Part shown: in pieces, positions 18,131 to 25,222 of the stretch
Position numbering within the stretch: the first letter of the stretch is position 1
Layout: each line of letters begins with the position of its first letter
NCBI GenBank assembly: GCA_026390575.1
Contig: JAPLFR010000007.1
Location: forward strand, 62,001 to 126,000
Direction: 5' to 3'
Length of the DNA: 64,000 nucleotides
Source: Ignavibacteriales bacterium
Lineage (GTDB): Bacteria > Bacteroidota > Ignavibacteria > UBA10030
Program-made: the position numbers and the translations under genes
The notes under the pieces: model-generated
Told to the model about the DNA's origin: nothing
Databases searched by the model: none
What the model saw: the letters and a program-made list of their open reading frames with translations, nothing else

Positions 18131-18433
18131 ATGAAACATATTGTTATCCTTATCATTTTCCTAGGACTTCTTTGCGGATCGTGTTCGACATCTCAATCAT
18201 CTTTACCAACAGAGGGCGTTCTGGAAGGAACAATCTTTGCGATCGGAAATGACCCGTTTACAAAGCTCGGCCTTCAGACCACTCAAAATCAAATGTACGT
18301 TCTCCGCTGCTCAAAGGAGATAGAAAAAGAATTGAATACAAAACAAGGTCAAAAAATGCGCATTCAGTACGACACGTTGGAGAATACCCCGGAAGGAATA
18401 ACCGTACGGGTCATAAGTTACGAACGCCAATAA
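18131..18433 (+). CDS. small lipoprotein of unknown function
   Basis: A 100-residue protein from the ATG at 18131: MKHIVILIIFLGLLCGSCST has a hydrophobic stretch and the lipobox LCGSC, so it should be lipidated at the cysteine (residue 18). The mature part is short, with an apparent small beta-barrel pattern (EGVLEGTIFAIGNDPF, then MRIQYDTLENTPEGITVRVI) like OB-type domains. A longer in-frame start at 18086 would bury the signal peptide. It lies 30 bp before the first secreted protease gene, possibly on the same transcript. Confidence 0.7.
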   Translation: MKHIVILIIFLGLLCGSCSTSQSSLPTEGVLEGTIFAIGNDPFTKLGLQTTQNQMYVLRCSKEIEKELNTKQGQKMRIQYDTLENTPEGITVRVISYERQ

Positions 18434-18463: not shown

Positions 18464-21151
18464 ATGATACACAGTTTAGCAAAACGACTGATCGGTTTCT
18501 TTATCGGATCCATCCTCTGCACTACAGCGCTTTGGGGACAACAATTCGTACAAGCAACAGAAATAGGTACCATTGGACAAAAAAGTTATCCCATTCATGC
18601 TTCGGATTTACTTTGGAAGCAGGAACTTGAAGTTCGGGAGTATATAAAAGCACATCCGAGTGCTCTGCAGCGAACTTCTCTTAAGAAGACAACATCGTTT
18701 TCTGTCGGTGCTACGAAATCGTGGTATGCAGATAATTTAATTACACAAAAGAATTCAGATCGCTATCTCGTACCCTCCACCTGCCGCGCTGTTGGAACCA
18801 ATTGCTATATATTTGTGGAGGATGCGAGCTGGGGATCACGGGTAAGTCAGTCTTCGGTCGATTCTGTACGTATTTACTTTGACTCAAAAACACCTGCCAA
18901 CCCAGCCAAAGGAATTTATCAGACAGATGTTGATGCTTTCGGCAACCCGCCTGATGTTGATAACGATCCGAAGATTATTATCCTAATGATGGATATAAAA
19001 GACGGATATACGAGTGGTGGGACGAACGGCTACGTAGAAGGATATTTTTATTCGTTTAATGAAATCGATTCTGAATCACCAGGTTATAGCACAAGCAATT
19101 TCGCGGAAATATTTTATCTTGACACCAATCCTCTTGACCTCGCCACTACAAGCGGACTGTACGGCGGACTTTCTACCTTAGCGCATGAATTCCAACATAT
19201 GATTCACTTCAATTATGATCGCAATGGAAACGAGTTAACATTCGTGAAGGAAGGATGTTCGGTACTTGCTGAAGTGAATTGCGGGTTTCCAATTTATCCA
19301 CAGTCATACTATGCTGCTGAACCGAACCATTATCTCCTTGATTGGCGCCGTGATGATTATACGGCTGTTCTCAATGATTATTCACGCGCAGCACGCTTCT
19401 TTGTGTATCTGCGGGATCAGGTGGGTATGGGGCTTTTTAGACCGCTTGTTGCCAGTGCCAGCACGCTTACTGGAACGGCAGGTATCAATGCTGCGTTGCA
19501 ATCAATCGGTGCAGGAGTACAGTTTTCCGATATACTACAAAATTGGTTCATCGCAAATATTTTGAACGACAGGAGTGTGGATACAAAGTACGGATATATA
19601 TATCCCAATCTCCCAAAGTCAAAAGGACGCGTCTTCCTGAGTCCTAATGTATCCGTTACAAATGATACCGTCCAAAATTATGCTGTTCAATATATCAACT
19701 TTAAAAATGGATCGCAGTTAAAAGCCACGTTTACGGTGAGCAATCCGGCATTGATTGTAAAAGCAGTTGAGATTGGCGCTTCATCAAAACGTGTTGTTAA
19801 TGTTACAAGCGGGGTAGAATTCTCCGAACCGCTTTATGGCAGCACTTATACCGAGGTTCACTTTGTCGTCATGAACACCGATCCTTCACTCTCTTATACT
19901 TTTACATATCAAGCCTCCGGTGCTAGTAAACCCATCGAACTGATGTATGACTATACTGAACCTGTTGGCGTTCTTCCGCTTGCTGCAAATGATACTGTTT
20001 GCGTTACTTTCGATGCCGTGCAGGATGGAAGTCTCGATTCTATCCGTGTGGCACTCCGCCGCAGTAGTACGATACGAGGGGGAATCTGGAGATCGACGGG
20101 CCTTAGCAGTCCGTCTCCCCTAGGTCAACCTATTACAACTAATTTGACGGTAAAAGGTTTATCAACTCCGCCTTCTCCCTATCCTGTTCCGTGGCCTAAT
20201 TGGGTGACTATTGATGTTCGTTCTTTGAATATTAATACAAACACACCTTTCGCAGTGGCATTCATTGTGGAAGGTGCATATAGTACAACCGATGGAACCA
20301 CCTACAACTATGTTATGACCACCCTCGCACCTGTTAGCAGTACACCGACAAGTTTTTCTTATTCGTCGGAATCTACAAGCGGAGCTAAATGGTACAATTT
20401 CGTCAGCAGTACCGCCCCCGATATGATGTTTAACTATTTAATACGGGCATATGTTAGTTTCCCGGCTTCGGTGTTGTACCCCGGTGATGCAAATAACGAT
20501 GGCATTGTAGACGCAAGAGATATTTTACCGATTGGATTGTATTATGGGAAAACGGGTTCACCTCGTTTAAACGGATCCAATACCTGGCAAAAGCAATACA
20601 TCGATCCACCATGGACACCGGAGCAAGCCGGCTATGCAGATTGTGATGGTAATGGCAAGATAGATTCTAATGATGTTATAGCCATTATTCAAAACTGGAA
20701 TGCAACAAGGACTGGCGGTGTGCCGGCTGGACTCGTACGCAGTGCCATTTGCCAGGAATTGTTGCAGGAGATTGACCGGAATGGTGCGACCGGACCGATG
20801 CGTTCTATTCGTAATGCGATCTCTTCCTATATGAATCAATCGCTTGTCGAGCATACGGACAACGTCCCTTTGAATTTTGCATTATACCAGAATTATCCCA
20901 ATCCATTTAATCCCTCAACAACTATTCATTTCACATTTCCGCAGAAAATACAAGAAGTTCGTCTTTCGATTTTCAATATCCTCGGGCAATTAGTGTGGGA
21001 AAAAGTTTTATCTGGTATTGAAGCCGGCACCTATGATGTTTCTTGGGCAGGGGAAACATTCAGCGGATCTAAGGTTGGCAGCGGAATATATATATACAAA
21101 TTAAAAGCAGGTTCCTATCATGACGTTAAAAAAATGATTCTTATTAAATAA
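18464..21151 (+). CDS. secreted HExxH metalloprotease with dockerin-like module and T9SS sorting domain
   Basis: An 895-residue protein. A signal peptide covers about residues 1-25. The zinc motif is H241-E-F-Q-H245, with a likely third ligand E263 in FVKEGCSVLAEVNCGF, a gluzincin-type arrangement. A beta-rich region follows. At about residues 674-735 there are two calcium-loop repeats of dockerin type: GDANNDGIVDARD and ADCDGNGKIDSND. The end is a type IX sorting domain with NYPNPFNPSTTI and DVKKMILIK. It should therefore cross the outer membrane and stay on the surface or be released. It is paralogous to the protein at 22665-24428. The cohesin-like lipoprotein gene starts 17 bp after it. 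Confidence 0.88.
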   Translation: MIHSLAKRLIGFFIGSILCTTALWGQQFVQATEIGTIGQKSYPIHASDLLWKQELEVREYIKAHPSALQRTSLKKTTSFSVGATKSWYADNLITQKNSDRYLVPSTCRAVGTNCYIFVEDASWGSRVSQSSVDSVRIYFDSKTPANPAKGIYQTDVDAFGNPPDVDNDPKIIILMMDIKDGYTSGGTNGYVEGYFYSFNEIDSESPGYSTSNFAEIFYLDTNPLDLATTSGLYGGLSTLAHEFQHMIHFNYDRNGNELTFVKEGCSVLAEVNCGFPIYPQSYYAAEPNHYLLDWRRDDYTAVLNDYSRAARFFVYLRDQVGMGLFRPLVASASTLTGTAGINAALQSIGAGVQFSDILQNWFIANILNDRSVDTKYGYIYPNLPKSKGRVFLSPNVSVTNDTVQNYAVQYINFKNGSQLKATFTVSNPALIVKAVEIGASSKRVVNVTSGVEFSEPLYGSTYTEVHFVVMNTDPSLSYTFTYQASGASKPIELMYDYTEPVGVLPLAANDTVCVTFDAVQDGSLDSIRVALRRSSTIRGGIWRSTGLSSPSPLGQPITTNLTVKGLSTPPSPYPVPWPNWVTIDVRSLNINTNTPFAVAFIVEGAYSTTDGTTYNYVMTTLAPVSSTPTSFSYSSESTSGAKWYNFVSSTAPDMMFNYLIRAYVSFPASVLYPGDANNDGIVDARDILPIGLYYGKTGSPRLNGSNTWQKQYIDPPWTPEQAGYADCDGNGKIDSNDVIAIIQNWNATRTGGVPAGLVRSAICQELLQEIDRNGATGPMRSIRNAISSYMNQSLVEHTDNVPLNFALYQNYPNPFNPSTTIHFTFPQKIQEVRLSIFNILGQLVWEKVLSGIEAGTYDVSWAGETFSGSKVGSGIYIYKLKAGSYHDVKKMILIK

Positions 21152-21168
21152 TCTCCATGAGGAAAACA

Positions 21169-22161
21169 ATGAAACAATATAGAGTAATAATTCCAATTGT
21201 CCTCCTCATCTTAGGAGGTTGCAGCAAGAGCACAACATCACCGGAAACATCAACATATACAATAACACCAACAGCTGGGTTGAATGGGATGATCAATCCT
21301 TCAAGTGCAACGACCGTAGAATCTGGTCAATCACAGAGGTTTGTTTTTATGCCTGACGCTGGCTTTATAGTCGATGTCTTATTAATAGATGGTGTGAAGG
21401 TAGATTCCTCTGTCGGTTATACATTTATCAATGTAAATACTAACCATACGATCCGTGTCACCTTCAAACTTGCTTCATTCACTTTAACACCGAGCGTCGG
21501 GCCGCATGGGTCGATCACTCCATCGAATGTAGTAGGTGTGGATTATGGCGGCACACAGAGATTCATTTTTACACCGGATGCGAATTATCAGGTTGATTCA
21601 GTGTTTGTGGATGGAGTGGAAGTTGACTCGCTGATTGGTTATTCGTTCGTGAATGTCACGGCGTCTCATTCGATCCGCGTAGTGTATTCCGCTATTGTTG
21701 CAGAAACCTGGACCTATCCATCTAATGGAGCAAAGTTTGCTGCAACAGTATACTCCAGTGCTTCTACAGTACAGAATGGCTCTCGATTTGAAGTGCTGGT
21801 GGTCTATTATAATATGACCAATGTTTTTGGAACAGCAATTGAGCTCGGTTTCCCAACCGACAAAATAGCTATACGGGATGTTATAGCCGGCCCGTACATA
21901 TCCGGCAGTTCAGCACTTATTCTGAAAAAGTTGGACAACACTGCGGGGCGCGTGAGCTTGGGGGCAACATTTACTGCGGGCAGTGGCAGCACAGCTGCTG
22001 GAAGCGGTGTAATACTCAAGTTAAAGTGCCGTGCGATAAATACCGGCAGTAGTCCGATTACGATCAATGCGTCAAAACTACAGATTCTCCAACCGGATGG
22101 TTCATCGATCACGAATTTTAATACGCTCCAGATTGAGAACTTGACAATGGGAATTCAATAA
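21169..22161 (+). CDS. lipoprotein with two B-repeats and a cohesin-like domain
   Basis: 330 residues from the ATG at 21169, chosen because GAGGAAAAC lies just before it (an ATG at 21157 has no such site). The lipobox is LGGCS. Two tandem repeats of about 75 residues follow (for example GLNGMINPSS... HTIRVTFKL and GPHGSITPSN... HSIRVVYSA), of the divergent InlB B-repeat type seen in surface proteins. Residues 193-330 read as a cohesin-like jelly roll: NGSRFEVLVVYYNMTNVFG, FPTDKIAIRDV, AGSGVILKLKCRAINTGSSP. Cohesins bind dockerins, and the upstream gene encodes one, so this may anchor the protease. The cohesin call is by eye and needs a profile search. Confidence 0.75.
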   Translation: MKQYRVIIPIVLLILGGCSKSTTSPETSTYTITPTAGLNGMINPSSATTVESGQSQRFVFMPDAGFIVDVLLIDGVKVDSSVGYTFINVNTNHTIRVTFKLASFTLTPSVGPHGSITPSNVVGVDYGGTQRFIFTPDANYQVDSVFVDGVEVDSLIGYSFVNVTASHSIRVVYSAIVAETWTYPSNGAKFAATVYSSASTVQNGSRFEVLVVYYNMTNVFGTAIELGFPTDKIAIRDVIAGPYISGSSALILKKLDNTAGRVSLGATFTAGSGSTAAGSGVILKLKCRAINTGSSPITINASKLQILQPDGSSITNFNTLQIENLTMGIQ

Positions 22162-22294: not shown

Positions 22295-22664
22295 TTTCTT
22301 CAGGGGCAATTCTTCCACCGCTTCATTCTATAATTGTTTCATTACTTATTGTTGACAGGTCAGTTAGCTGAAATGCTTATTGAACACGCATAAGGAAGAC
22401 AATGATCCTCTATCGACCTGCTTCTGCAATAGCATCATTTGCTCCTCTCGCATTCGATATGCATCATCATGCGCACATCTTCTTAAAAATGATGGCGACG
22501 GGAACCACTATTATAGTGTCTTCGTTTATGAAGAGAAGATATTGACAATCATCGACTATACGGAACAAACTGATTCGGATAACAAAAAGAGGATGTAAAG
22601 ATTGAATATCAAAATAAACGCAGAGTCAAGTGATGATCATCTCACACACAGTGGAAGATCTCGG
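22295..22664 (+). other. intergenic region with promoter-like sequence, no clear gene
   Basis: This stretch between the terminator and the second protease holds TTCTTCC-CCGCTTCATT followed by TATAAT near 22330, matching the arrangement before the gene at 24551, and a TTGACA at about 22353. A 46-codon frame from ATG 22401 with GGAAG before it, and an overlapping 72-codon frame from a TTG, resemble nothing known and are not called as genes. Confidence 0.4.
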
Positions 22665-24428
22665 ATGCAACATTATTTCATTCGGCAATTCATAGCTCTT
22701 GTTTTCGGTTTCATGGTTTGCACAACCCTTCTTGCACAGCAGATGGAAAAGATAGTGGCAGAGAAGGGCATACCTCCGAATAGCTACCTGATTCATGCAT
22801 CAGATTTGCTCTGGAAACAAGAGCTTGAAGTGCGAAATTTTGTGGTACAACATCCAGAAGCTCTCAAATCGAGTACACTACTCAAAACCGCATGGACATT
22901 CACAGTGGGCTCTACTAAATCATGGTACGCAGATAATTTGGTTACCGGTTTAATCAGCGACAGGTACCAAGTACCTTCGACATGCCGTGCTGTGGGCATC
23001 AACTGCTATATTTTTGTGGAAGACTCAAGCTGGATCACTCGTGTAAATCAAGCTGCCGTTGATTCCATACGAATATATTTTGATTCCAAAACACCTGCTA
23101 ATCCTTCCAAGGGAATTTTTGCTACGGATACTTCCGCCTTCGGCAATCCACCCGATGTCGATCAAGACCCGAGAATCATCATTCTGCTCCTCAATATTAA
23201 AGACGGTTACAACGGCAGCGGTGGTTTTGTTGGAGGGTACTTCCAGCCATTCAATGAAATTAATCCCTCGCAACATGGATATAGCACAAGTAATTTCGCA
23301 GAGATGTTTTATATTGATACGAATCCGCTTAAGCTTACAACATCAGGAGGGTTAACAACCGGAATTTCAACACTTGCACATGAATTCCAACACATGATTC
23401 ATTTCCATTACGATCCTACTGAAATATCTTTTGTAAATGAAGGCTGCTCGGTACTTGCAGAAGTAAATTGCGGGTTTCCAATTTACTCACAGTCATATTA
23501 CGCATCCGAACCCAATCACTATCTCCTTGATTGGCGCAGTGGTGACTTGACACATGTGCTTAACGATTATTCAAGAGCTGCCCGGTTTTTTGTTTACATA
23601 CGCGATCAAGTAGGTATTGGAGTATTTAAAAAAATAGTTGCCAGCACTCAACACGGAACTGCCGGGATTGATGCCGGATTACAAGCATACGGTTCACCCC
23701 TACGGTTCAATGGAATCTTGCAGGATTGGTTCATCGCTAATATCTTAGATGATAGATCTGTCGACTTATTATACGGTTACTCCTATCCCAACCTTCCAAA
23801 GGTATTAGAACGAACATTTTTCAATCCTAATGTTGCTCTCACAACCGACACTGTCAAAAATTATGCTGTCCAGTATCTTGCTTTTAAATCTGGTTCCCAA
23901 TTGCATGCTACTTTTACATCCAGCAATTCTGCTCTTATTATTAAAGCGGTTGAAATAGGATCCTCAAAACGCGTAATTGATGTAACCAGAAATGTTGATT
24001 TCACAGAACCATTATTTGGTACCACATATAACGAAATTCATTTCGTTGTTATGGATACGGATCCTAATATTCAAGTAATATATTCTTATACAGCATCTGG
24101 TACCGCAGTACCGCAAACGGATGTCCAACGCGTTTCCATTGCTTTGCCAACTTCGTTTATGCTTAAGCAGAACTATCCCAATCCATTTAATCCGAGCACG
24201 AACATCGAATACAGCATTCCTATAAAAGGAATTGTAAAAATTGAGGTATTTGATATTCTTGGTCACTCGGTTGCAACATTAGTCGATAAAGTTCAAGACG
24301 CCGGTGTCTATCATACAACGTGGACTGGAAAAGCAAACAATGGCATAGCAATGCCCTCTGGAGTGTATTTCTATCGGCTGGAAAGCGGCAGTTTTTCAAA
24401 AACCGAACGAATGCTCCTTTTGAAGTAA
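22665..24428 (+). CDS. secreted HExxH metalloprotease with T9SS sorting domain (paralogue)
   Basis: 587 residues from the ATG at 22665, where the signal peptide (MQHYFIRQFIALVFGFMVC) aligns with that of the first protease; a TTG at 22602 would add 21 residues of no clear use. The zinc motif is H239-E-F-Q-H243, with FVNEGCSVLAEVNCGF after it. It is strikingly similar to the protease at 18464 over the first 500 or so residues, but it lacks the dockerin-like insert and goes straight to the sorting domain (NYPNPFNPSTNIEY, then VATLVDKVQDAGVYHTTW). The pair arose by duplication, and the two differ in surface attachment. Confidence 0.86.
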   Translation: MQHYFIRQFIALVFGFMVCTTLLAQQMEKIVAEKGIPPNSYLIHASDLLWKQELEVRNFVVQHPEALKSSTLLKTAWTFTVGSTKSWYADNLVTGLISDRYQVPSTCRAVGINCYIFVEDSSWITRVNQAAVDSIRIYFDSKTPANPSKGIFATDTSAFGNPPDVDQDPRIIILLLNIKDGYNGSGGFVGGYFQPFNEINPSQHGYSTSNFAEMFYIDTNPLKLTTSGGLTTGISTLAHEFQHMIHFHYDPTEISFVNEGCSVLAEVNCGFPIYSQSYYASEPNHYLLDWRSGDLTHVLNDYSRAARFFVYIRDQVGIGVFKKIVASTQHGTAGIDAGLQAYGSPLRFNGILQDWFIANILDDRSVDLLYGYSYPNLPKVLERTFFNPNVALTTDTVKNYAVQYLAFKSGSQLHATFTSSNSALIIKAVEIGSSKRVIDVTRNVDFTEPLFGTTYNEIHFVVMDTDPNIQVIYSYTASGTAVPQTDVQRVSIALPTSFMLKQNYPNPFNPSTNIEYSIPIKGIVKIEVFDILGHSVATLVDKVQDAGVYHTTWTGKANNGIAMPSGVYFYRLESGSFSKTERMLLLK

Positions 24429-24550: not shown

Positions 24551-25222
24551 ATGAAATCAGTTATTCTTCGCGGCACGGATAAGTTTTACACTGTTGGCAA
24601 AATCATTTGCCTCGGGCAGAATTACGCTGAACATGCCAAAGAAATGAAATTCGAAGTACCCGCATCGCCTGTATTCTTCTTCAAACCTCCAAGCGCGATC
24701 ATCCATAACGGCGGACAAATTGTTCTGCCTGAGATATCGAACGATGTCCACCATGAAGTTGAGATGACCATACTGATAGGTGAAAGGGGAAACAACATTC
24801 ACCGTTGCACCGCTTTGAAGCATGTTGCAGGATATGGAATTGGGCTTGATATGACGATGCGTGATATCCAGAATGAAGCAAAGAAAAAAGGCCTTCCGTG
24901 GGCACTTGCCAAGGGGTTCGATACCTCTGCACCTGTTTCGGAATTTATTCCGGCAGAGAGTGTAGGCGATCCTGGTTTACTTACTGTCCAATTGTTGATC
25001 AACGGAAAGCTTCGGCAATCATCTAGCACGAGCAAATTTGTATTCCCTGTCGATAAAGTTATCGCCTACATCTCGCAGTTCATCACCTTTGAGCCCGGAG
25101 ATATTATTTTCACCGGCACGCCGGAAGGCGTTTCACGCGTAGAGCATGGTGATAAATTAGAAGCTTCATTGCTTGATACCGATAAAAATATATTAACATC
25201 TTTGTCTGTAAGCGTGCAATAA
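24551..25222 (+). CDS. fumarylacetoacetate hydrolase (FAH) family protein
   Basis: A 223-residue single-domain FAH protein. Motifs: KIICLGQNYAEHAKEM at the N-terminus, the metal-binding EVEMTILIG and GLDMTMRDIQ, and FEPGDIIFTGTPEGV near the end. This size and motif set match the FAHD1/YcgM group, which includes acylpyruvate hydrolases and oxaloacetate decarboxylases. The exact substrate is not readable. It stands before the parA-like gene with a 44-bp gap. Confidence 0.9.
   Translation: MKSVILRGTDKFYTVGKIICLGQNYAEHAKEMKFEVPASPVFFFKPPSAIIHNGGQIVLPEISNDVHHEVEMTILIGERGNNIHRCTALKHVAGYGIGLDMTMRDIQNEAKKKGLPWALAKGFDTSAPVSEFIPAESVGDPGLLTVQLLINGKLRQSSSTSKFVFPVDKVIAYISQFITFEPGDIIFTGTPEGVSRVEHGDKLEASLLDTDKNILTSLSVSVQ

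Follow-up and report, generated by a model that had tools for sequence, protein, structure and literature searches.

A protease gene and a lipoprotein gene in tandem

In a 64,000-nucleotide stretch of an Ignavibacteriales bacterium (GenBank assembly GCA_026390575.1, contig JAPLFR010000007.1, positions 62,001 to 126,000), hereafter the window, two adjacent genes were found to encode the halves of a candidate cohesin-dockerin pair: a protease that carries a dockerin and a putative lipoprotein whose C-terminal domain is predicted to fold as a cohesin. Cohesin-dockerin pairs are best known from the cellulosomes of Gram-positive anaerobes. A first-pass annotation of this locus, based on the letters of the window, had proposed a docking system outside cellulosomes that would add a lipid anchor to a protease exported by the type IX secretion system (T9SS). 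The features of the locus are collected in Table 1.

The protease, with an open reading frame (ORF) of 895 amino acids (aa), comprises from N to C terminus an M30-like region with the HEFQH motif, a beta-rich region, the dockerin, a segment of ~60 residues and a T9SS type A sorting domain. Its family assignment comes from Pfam (PF10460, Peptidase_M30, E 8.1e-8, 31.7 bits against a cut-off of 25.8), and its tail matched both PF18962 in Pfam (E 7.5e-8) and TIGR04183 (E 6.7e-9). The protease thus has the two marks of a type A cargo, its own C-terminal sorting domain and a secretion sortase in the genome. The dockerin matched PF00404 (E 5.1e-7, 30.2 bits against a cut-off of 22.9), which places it in the type I family as a long variant, with profile positions 1-54 stretched across 71 residues. 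Both calcium loops quoted by the first-pass annotation are readable in the window sequence, and they are conserved in the dockerin alignment of the seven pairs described below. The segment of ~60 residues that follows was predicted to be helical in the homologue from genome G012 (secondary structure of low to moderate confidence). In the window's own genome (G000) no other PF00404 place reaches E <= 0.001. A weaker dockerin match in G000 lies on contig C5 (C5:8884-9021, locus L007; E 0.012, over the cut-off only together with its neighbours), in a T9SS-tailed protein rich in repeated domains, and no PF00963 place was found on C5.

Table 1. Features of the protease-lipoprotein locus (window positions)
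Feature	Position	Strand	Basis
T9SS-tailed M30-like putative zinc metalloprotease (HEFQH motif), dockerin carrier	18464-21151	+	ORF, Pfam and NCBIfam matches
Type I dockerin, two calcium loops, long insert between the loops	20480-20692 (aa 673-743)	+	PF00404
Segment of ~60 residues linking dockerin to T9SS tail	20693-20870	+	Conserved along with the dockerin across the seven pairs
T9SS type A C-terminal sorting domain	20894-21148	+	TIGR04183 at 20894-21139 (contig C7:82894-83139)
Cohesin-bearing lipoprotein gene	21157-22161	+	Likely start ATG 21169; lipobox Cys codon 21220-21222 (read from sequence)
Two divergent InlB-type B-repeats	21253-21690 (limits approximate)	+	Repeat homologues at aa 32-178; PF18998 on L010
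Cohesin domain (predicted)	21727-22158	+	Family profile against PDB, relative L071, AF2 model, Foldseek, structural alignment
Protease paralogue without dockerin and without adjoining cohesin gene (internal control)	22602-24428 (ATG 22665)	+	ORF, Pfam, alignment

The first ATG of the lipoprotein gene lies 5 bp past the protease stop, and the likely start, which has AGGA upstream, lies 17 bp past it, so that the spacing and both ORFs agree with the first-pass annotation. The product (334 residues) has a signal peptide, two repeats and a C-terminal domain of ~145 residues; as that annotation had read it, the signal peptide is lipobox-like (LGG, then Cys22). The repeats themselves gave no match in Pfam; their earlier description as B-repeats is right because L010, a homologue of the repeat pair, matched PF18998 (Divergent InlB B-repeat, E 5.9e-10). 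They probably form a spacer between the lipid anchor and the cohesin, and among the seven pairs they occur in the window copy only, with no such stretch in the six relatives. When the whole lipoprotein was searched, most matches, among the matches listed, fell on the B-repeats (50/150 genomes), and the search was therefore repeated with the last 152 residues. Repeats of the window type are also abundant in the related family f3, where very long open frames, the largest 3883 aa, hold many copies, for example on G043:C38 and G033:C7.

The C-terminal domain is a cohesin by its predicted jelly-roll fold, an identity supported by homology to locus L071, by a family profile and by the model itself. 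Among the seven cohesins, L071 (genome G012) exceeded the PF00963 cut-off (E 4.2e-10, 40.4 bits against 24.1) and L066 fell below it (E 0.014). A profile of all seven, searched against PDB sequences, matched a C. thermocellum cohesin (5g5d, E 0.0021). The AlphaFold (AF2) model of the window domain, built from the seven sequences, reached a mean predicted local distance difference test score (pLDDT) of 88.7 and a predicted template modelling score (pTM) of 0.85, and its top Foldseek match was the non-cellulosomal cohesin of Archaeoglobus fulgidus (2xdh, E 1.5e-9). In VIA-align, the model superposed on the ScaC cohesin 4uyp_A with a Z of 18.6 (root-mean-square deviation 1.9 A over 136 aligned residues) and on 2xdh with a Z of 16.9. 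Judged by title, the best 50 structural matches from each of Foldseek and VIA-align were all cohesins or chains of cohesin complexes.

The protease family and the gene pair in related genomes

Relatives of the protease were found in 35 of the 98 genomes of the order. From at least 40 protease places, 19 loci were screened with downstream flanks of ~0.3 to 1.2 kb, and none had a window-type dockerin or cohesin. Against the 15 of these that were aligned, and against the paralogue, the window protease shows a clean insertion of ~120 residues, consisting of the dockerin and the segment behind it and placed after the beta-rich region but before the sorting tail; among the 15, L129 has an insert there too, of unrelated sequence. 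The paralogue had been said to have neither module, and indeed it carries no dockerin and its next downstream gene, at 24551, is not a cohesin gene (we take it to be a FAA-hydrolase-like enzyme). As far as these sequences indicate, the family normally lacks a dockerin, and the single member seen with one also has a cohesin gene behind it; hence a joint gain of both would be the simplest reading.

Searching with the window cohesin domain gave 28 places in 24 of 294 related genomes. Besides the window's own there were six close relatives (L066 to L071), 36-42% identical to the window cohesin, whose neighbourhoods were read; the loci of G005, G013, G025 and G081 were also viewed. Each of the six lies at the end of a small protein whose signal peptide looks lipobox-like by eye and whose gene immediately follows that of a dockerin protein, overlapping it by 4 bp in L067-L070 and separated from it by ~10 bp in L066 (internal ATG 4830) and L071. 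All six of these dockerin proteins have a tail that matches TIGR04183 over cut-off. In the alignment their dockerins have the same long form as the window copy, and conservation extends to the insert that separates the calcium loops and to the segment that follows; PF00404 matched five of them over cut-off, among which L071 was marginal (24.1 bits against 22.9). The cargo differs. In L067-L070 it scores as a Sortilin-Vps10 propeller (PF15902 over cut-off, E 7.5e-22 to 5e-28) and no protease, and the partial cargo sequences of L066 and L071 gave no PF15902 match but show propeller repeats by eye. The cohesin-dockerin pair is more general than the first-pass annotation could see, recurring in related genomes mostly with non-protease cargo.

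A profile of the long dockerin matched in 13 of the 98 genomes, with eight full-length matches at E < 1e-54. Since seven of these, the window included, are the rows from which the profile was made, the news is a single further full-length dockerin in the order. A cohesin gene adjoins seven of the eight, that is, all seven intact cases. At the eighth (G051, L098:3557-4168) the frame is too short for a propeller and the tail is shortened; the dockerin and part of the tail survive, and the lipoprotein is gone from the position it holds in other genomes of that family, so that the locus may be a decayed remnant of the dockerin-cohesin cassette or an assembly fault. Five further genomes of the order gave partial matches to the profile. 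Within a 395-genome sample of the phylum, only G000 and G032 gave strong scores with the cohesin profile, and no full-length long dockerin was found outside those two.

More distant arrangements were also seen. G081 has a dockerin protein that scores near the cut-off of PF00404 and at 29.5 bits with TIGR04183, and that has weak ASH/Hydin-like matches which stay below cut-off. An ORF begins 17 bp further on whose internal start would give a lipoprotein; the domain it carries is a distant member of the window cohesin family (E 2.5e-12; PF00963 E only 0.061). On sequence evidence this appears to be a more distant pair bearing yet another cargo. Dockerin and cohesins share one open frame in G013 and G025, and likewise in G396 and G132 outside the order. 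In L100:1175-7524 and L101:795-4100 a cohesin, a dockerin and a second cohesin lie within a single open frame, a layout that may serve locking within the chain or head-to-tail linking of chains.

Across the order, PF00963 was found in 58 and PF00404 in 59 of the 98 genomes (both families in 53, neither in 34, cohesin only in 5, dockerin only in 6), and at least 67 of 139 dockerin places have a cohesin within 3 kb, a lower bound because all 139 dockerin places were compared with 150 of the 230 cohesin places; these co-occurrence and linkage counts ignore relatedness among the genomes. Of the dockerin-only genomes, G032 and G042 do have a window-type cohesin, which Pfam misses, and G051 is another of the six. 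The comparisons show what the two domains are, that their genes pair strictly, that the cargo has changed and that the dockerin sits as an insertion in a protease family otherwise without one.

Several neighbouring observations concern these families. G000 has four further PF00963 places over cut-off. On its contig C14 (L104:148-2511) a 787-aa protein has two PF00963 cohesins and a C-terminal tandem calcium-loop pair, DTDGSGVIDVTDRANTW / DTDLSGVVDVTDRANTW, which is absent from the PF00404 matches; the protein has no TIGR04183 tail, and two T9SS-tailed proteins follow. In G033 a 1749-aa protein (L109:1498-6747) combines a PF00404 dockerin with a stretch close to its C terminus that looks cohesin-like by eye; its neighbour is a 666-aa protein with two PF00963 places (L109:6775-8775). 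To judge from the match coordinates of both families, genes may be laid out similarly elsewhere in the order. Moreover, a small lipoprotein-like gene lies immediately upstream of the dockerin gene in the window (18131-18433), and the same position is filled in four f2 genomes (L067:7537-8034, L068:1563-2051, L069:835-1308 and L070:8420-8893), with no homology to the window gene apparent by eye.

Proposed docking at the cell and its alternatives

We consider it probable that the window encodes a dedicated one-to-one cohesin-dockerin pair, outside cellulosomes, in which calcium-dependent docking holds the protease at the cell. The pairing itself is well supported by fold, family profiles, adjacency in all seven intact cases, cargo change and joint absence; a surface-anchoring role of the lipoprotein is plausible. 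From these data we infer binding, its calcium dependence, the outward-facing location and the anchoring. In the proposed mechanism, the protease would be exported by the type IX system and its sorting domain removed, leaving a mature end formed by the dockerin and the conserved, probably helical segment. The lipoprotein would be tethered to the outer membrane through its N-terminal lipid and would present the cohesin on a stalk of two B-repeats, and calcium-dependent docking would then keep the protease at the cell. On this account the dockerin insertion and the downstream cohesin gene behave as a single cassette, one that has come to be joined to different exported cargos.

The pair is not a cellulosome. 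Its lipoprotein has a single cohesin, unlike a multi-cohesin scaffoldin. G000 has one PF00404 place at the threshold above plus the weaker one on C5, and the searches turned up no group of dockerin enzymes, either for the pair or for the two-cohesin C14 protein.

Several results weigh against the docking proposal, and some of them concern the identity of the domains. Searched alone, the window lipoprotein gave no cohesin match in Pfam, NCBIfam or PDB-sequence searches, and PF00963 had no Pfam match on the window domain or on L067, L068, L069 and L070, leaving one of the seven cohesins over cut-off; the L066 dockerin had no PF00404 match at E <= 0.01. Furthermore, the seven cases are not fully independent because the genomes sit in three families of a single order. 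The first-pass annotation had advised profile and structure searches, taking the lack of a significant cohesin hit as a sign against its idea. PF00404 and the cohesin fold came out as it expected and PF00963 on the window domain did not; the window sequence alone gives exactly that negative result, given that only the relatives and the fold reveal the cohesin. The reading is carried by fold and pairing, not by the count of PF00963 matches. That the calls are spurious, reflecting a generic beta-sandwich and generic EF-hand-like repeats that are neighbours by chance, would fit the missing PF00963 matches on the window cohesin and four of six relatives, and EF-hand models in Pfam also weakly match the second calcium loop of the window dockerin. 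It is nevertheless highly improbable, being contradicted by the Z of 18.6 to cohesins, by the PF00963 match of the G012 homologue and by adjacency in every intact case.

A further difficulty is the interface. Co-folding, which the first-pass annotation had suggested, was attempted once, with the two G012 domains joined into a single read-through chain, and gave a pTM of 0.39 and no confident interface, with a pLDDT of 35-52 over residues 1-60, that is, most of the dockerin. This result would suit two real folds that are not partners, the cohesin binding another ligand (a glycan or another dockerin) and the adjacency reflecting operon inheritance. Some cohesin-like modules may indeed be adhesive instead of dockerin-binding, and cross-binding is conceivable given the four further PF00963 places and the weak C5 dockerin in G000. 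We nonetheless judge this rather improbable, as the two domains are present and absent together across the change of cargo, decay together in G051 and share one open frame in other genomes, and as the sole PF00404 dockerin of G032 and of G042 adjoins a window-type cohesin in the absence of any PF00963 cohesin at E <= 0.001.

The remaining points against the proposal concern export. G000 encodes PorU (E 3.9e-290, over cut-off) and has 101 T9SS-A tail places (TIGR04183), so T9SS cargo can be anchored without a lipoprotein route, and ~100 other tails seemingly manage without such a partner. In Capnocytophaga, lipoprotein export follows the motif C-X-K-(D/E)2-X, according to the part of that report consulted (PMC5080379). 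The mature start of the window lipoprotein, CSKSTTSPE, does not fit this motif, which may not be that of the present lineage. Among the seven lipoproteins the fit is exact only in L066 (CKKDD), and L067-L070 have Lys and one Asp or Glu right after the Cys. The pair might accordingly bind inside the envelope, with a periplasm-facing lipoprotein acting as escort or retention partner of one cargo before or during T9SS export. The missing motif, the attachment route offered by PorU and the 101 tails against one dockerin at E <= 0.001 agree with such an escort, the last suggesting that the lipoprotein partner is cargo-specific. We hold it to be unlikely, for the motif is Capnocytophaga's and its absence means little, L066 and L067-L070 carry the exact or a related start, and a B-repeat stalk would be more natural on the outer surface. 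Docking at the cell remains our preferred account; of what the first-pass annotation had claimed, the cohesin-dockerin pair outside cellulosomes stands, and surface anchoring of the protease is a plausible further step, made less certain by the co-fold, the export motif and PorU.

In a broader form, to which we would give about even chances, the cassette would be a portable docking device of T9SS bacteria, with a dockerin grafted before the sorting tail and a cohesin on a lipoprotein encoded next to it. It would supply a private, non-covalent and sortase-independent lipid anchor for individual cargos (the metalloprotease, the Vps10-type propeller and perhaps others), and would be one of many T9SS-linked forms that cohesins and dockerins take in the order, where both families occur in 53 of 98 genomes.

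Known cohesin-dockerin systems

The literature searched on cohesins and dockerins (with T9SS, in Ignavibacteria, non-cellulosomal, or with lipoproteins and the outer membrane), as far as its accessible text goes, describes no pair of a T9SS cargo and a lipoprotein cohesin. We therefore regard the window pair as a real, conserved variant of the non-cellulosomal cohesin-dockerin kind, unremarked within that literature. If the proposal is true, Gram-negative bacteria would be using cohesin and dockerin to retain proteins at their surface, and the uses of the interaction would extend beyond cellulose to proteolysis. The two soluble domains, of ~150 residues each, are directly testable and might offer an orthogonal binding pair for engineering. 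The question is raised why one or two of ~100 T9SS cargos need a private partner despite the sortase route. Melioribacter roseus is a member of the Ignavibacteria. Its cellulases were reported without dockerin and scaffoldin domains in the portion of the paper available (PMC3534657).

Structural matches of the window cohesin include those of OlpA and OlpC (3ul4, 4dh2) and of ScaE (2zf9). In these Gram-positive single-cohesin anchors (C. thermocellum OlpA and OlpC, R. flavefaciens ScaE) a surface-fixed cohesin docks a dockerin protein directly, with surface-layer or sortase attachment and not a lipid, and with partners usually encoded elsewhere. The A. fulgidus pair (2xdh) is, like the window pair, a cohesin-dockerin system outside cellulosomes, and its cohesin was the top Foldseek match. 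It differs in being archaeal, from an organism not known to have T9SS or an outer membrane. The pair, orthogonal and of high affinity, has served to keep proteins attached to E. coli, according to the excerpt consulted (PMC9705933). The surface lipoproteins of Bacteroidetes resemble the window lipoprotein as outer-membrane lipoproteins, possibly showing a binding domain outside, and differ in an export motif that the window copy lacks; the available sections of that work make no mention of cohesins (PMC5080379).

The nearest described case found, within the accessible part of its report, is the cellulosome-like complex of Candidatus Stygibacter (Cloacimonadota), in which exported enzymes, S8 and C25 peptidases among them, bear dockerins as well as a conserved surface-attachment domain at the C terminus (PMC8542988). 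From a citation in that paper, this domain may be a T9SS domain. There, one scaffoldin of 3,755 aa with repeated cohesins, itself bearing the surface-attachment domain, serves several enzymes (PMC8542988, same part). In contrast, the window pair consists of one lipoprotein with one cohesin for one neighbour, and the T9SS tail lies on the dockerin partner.

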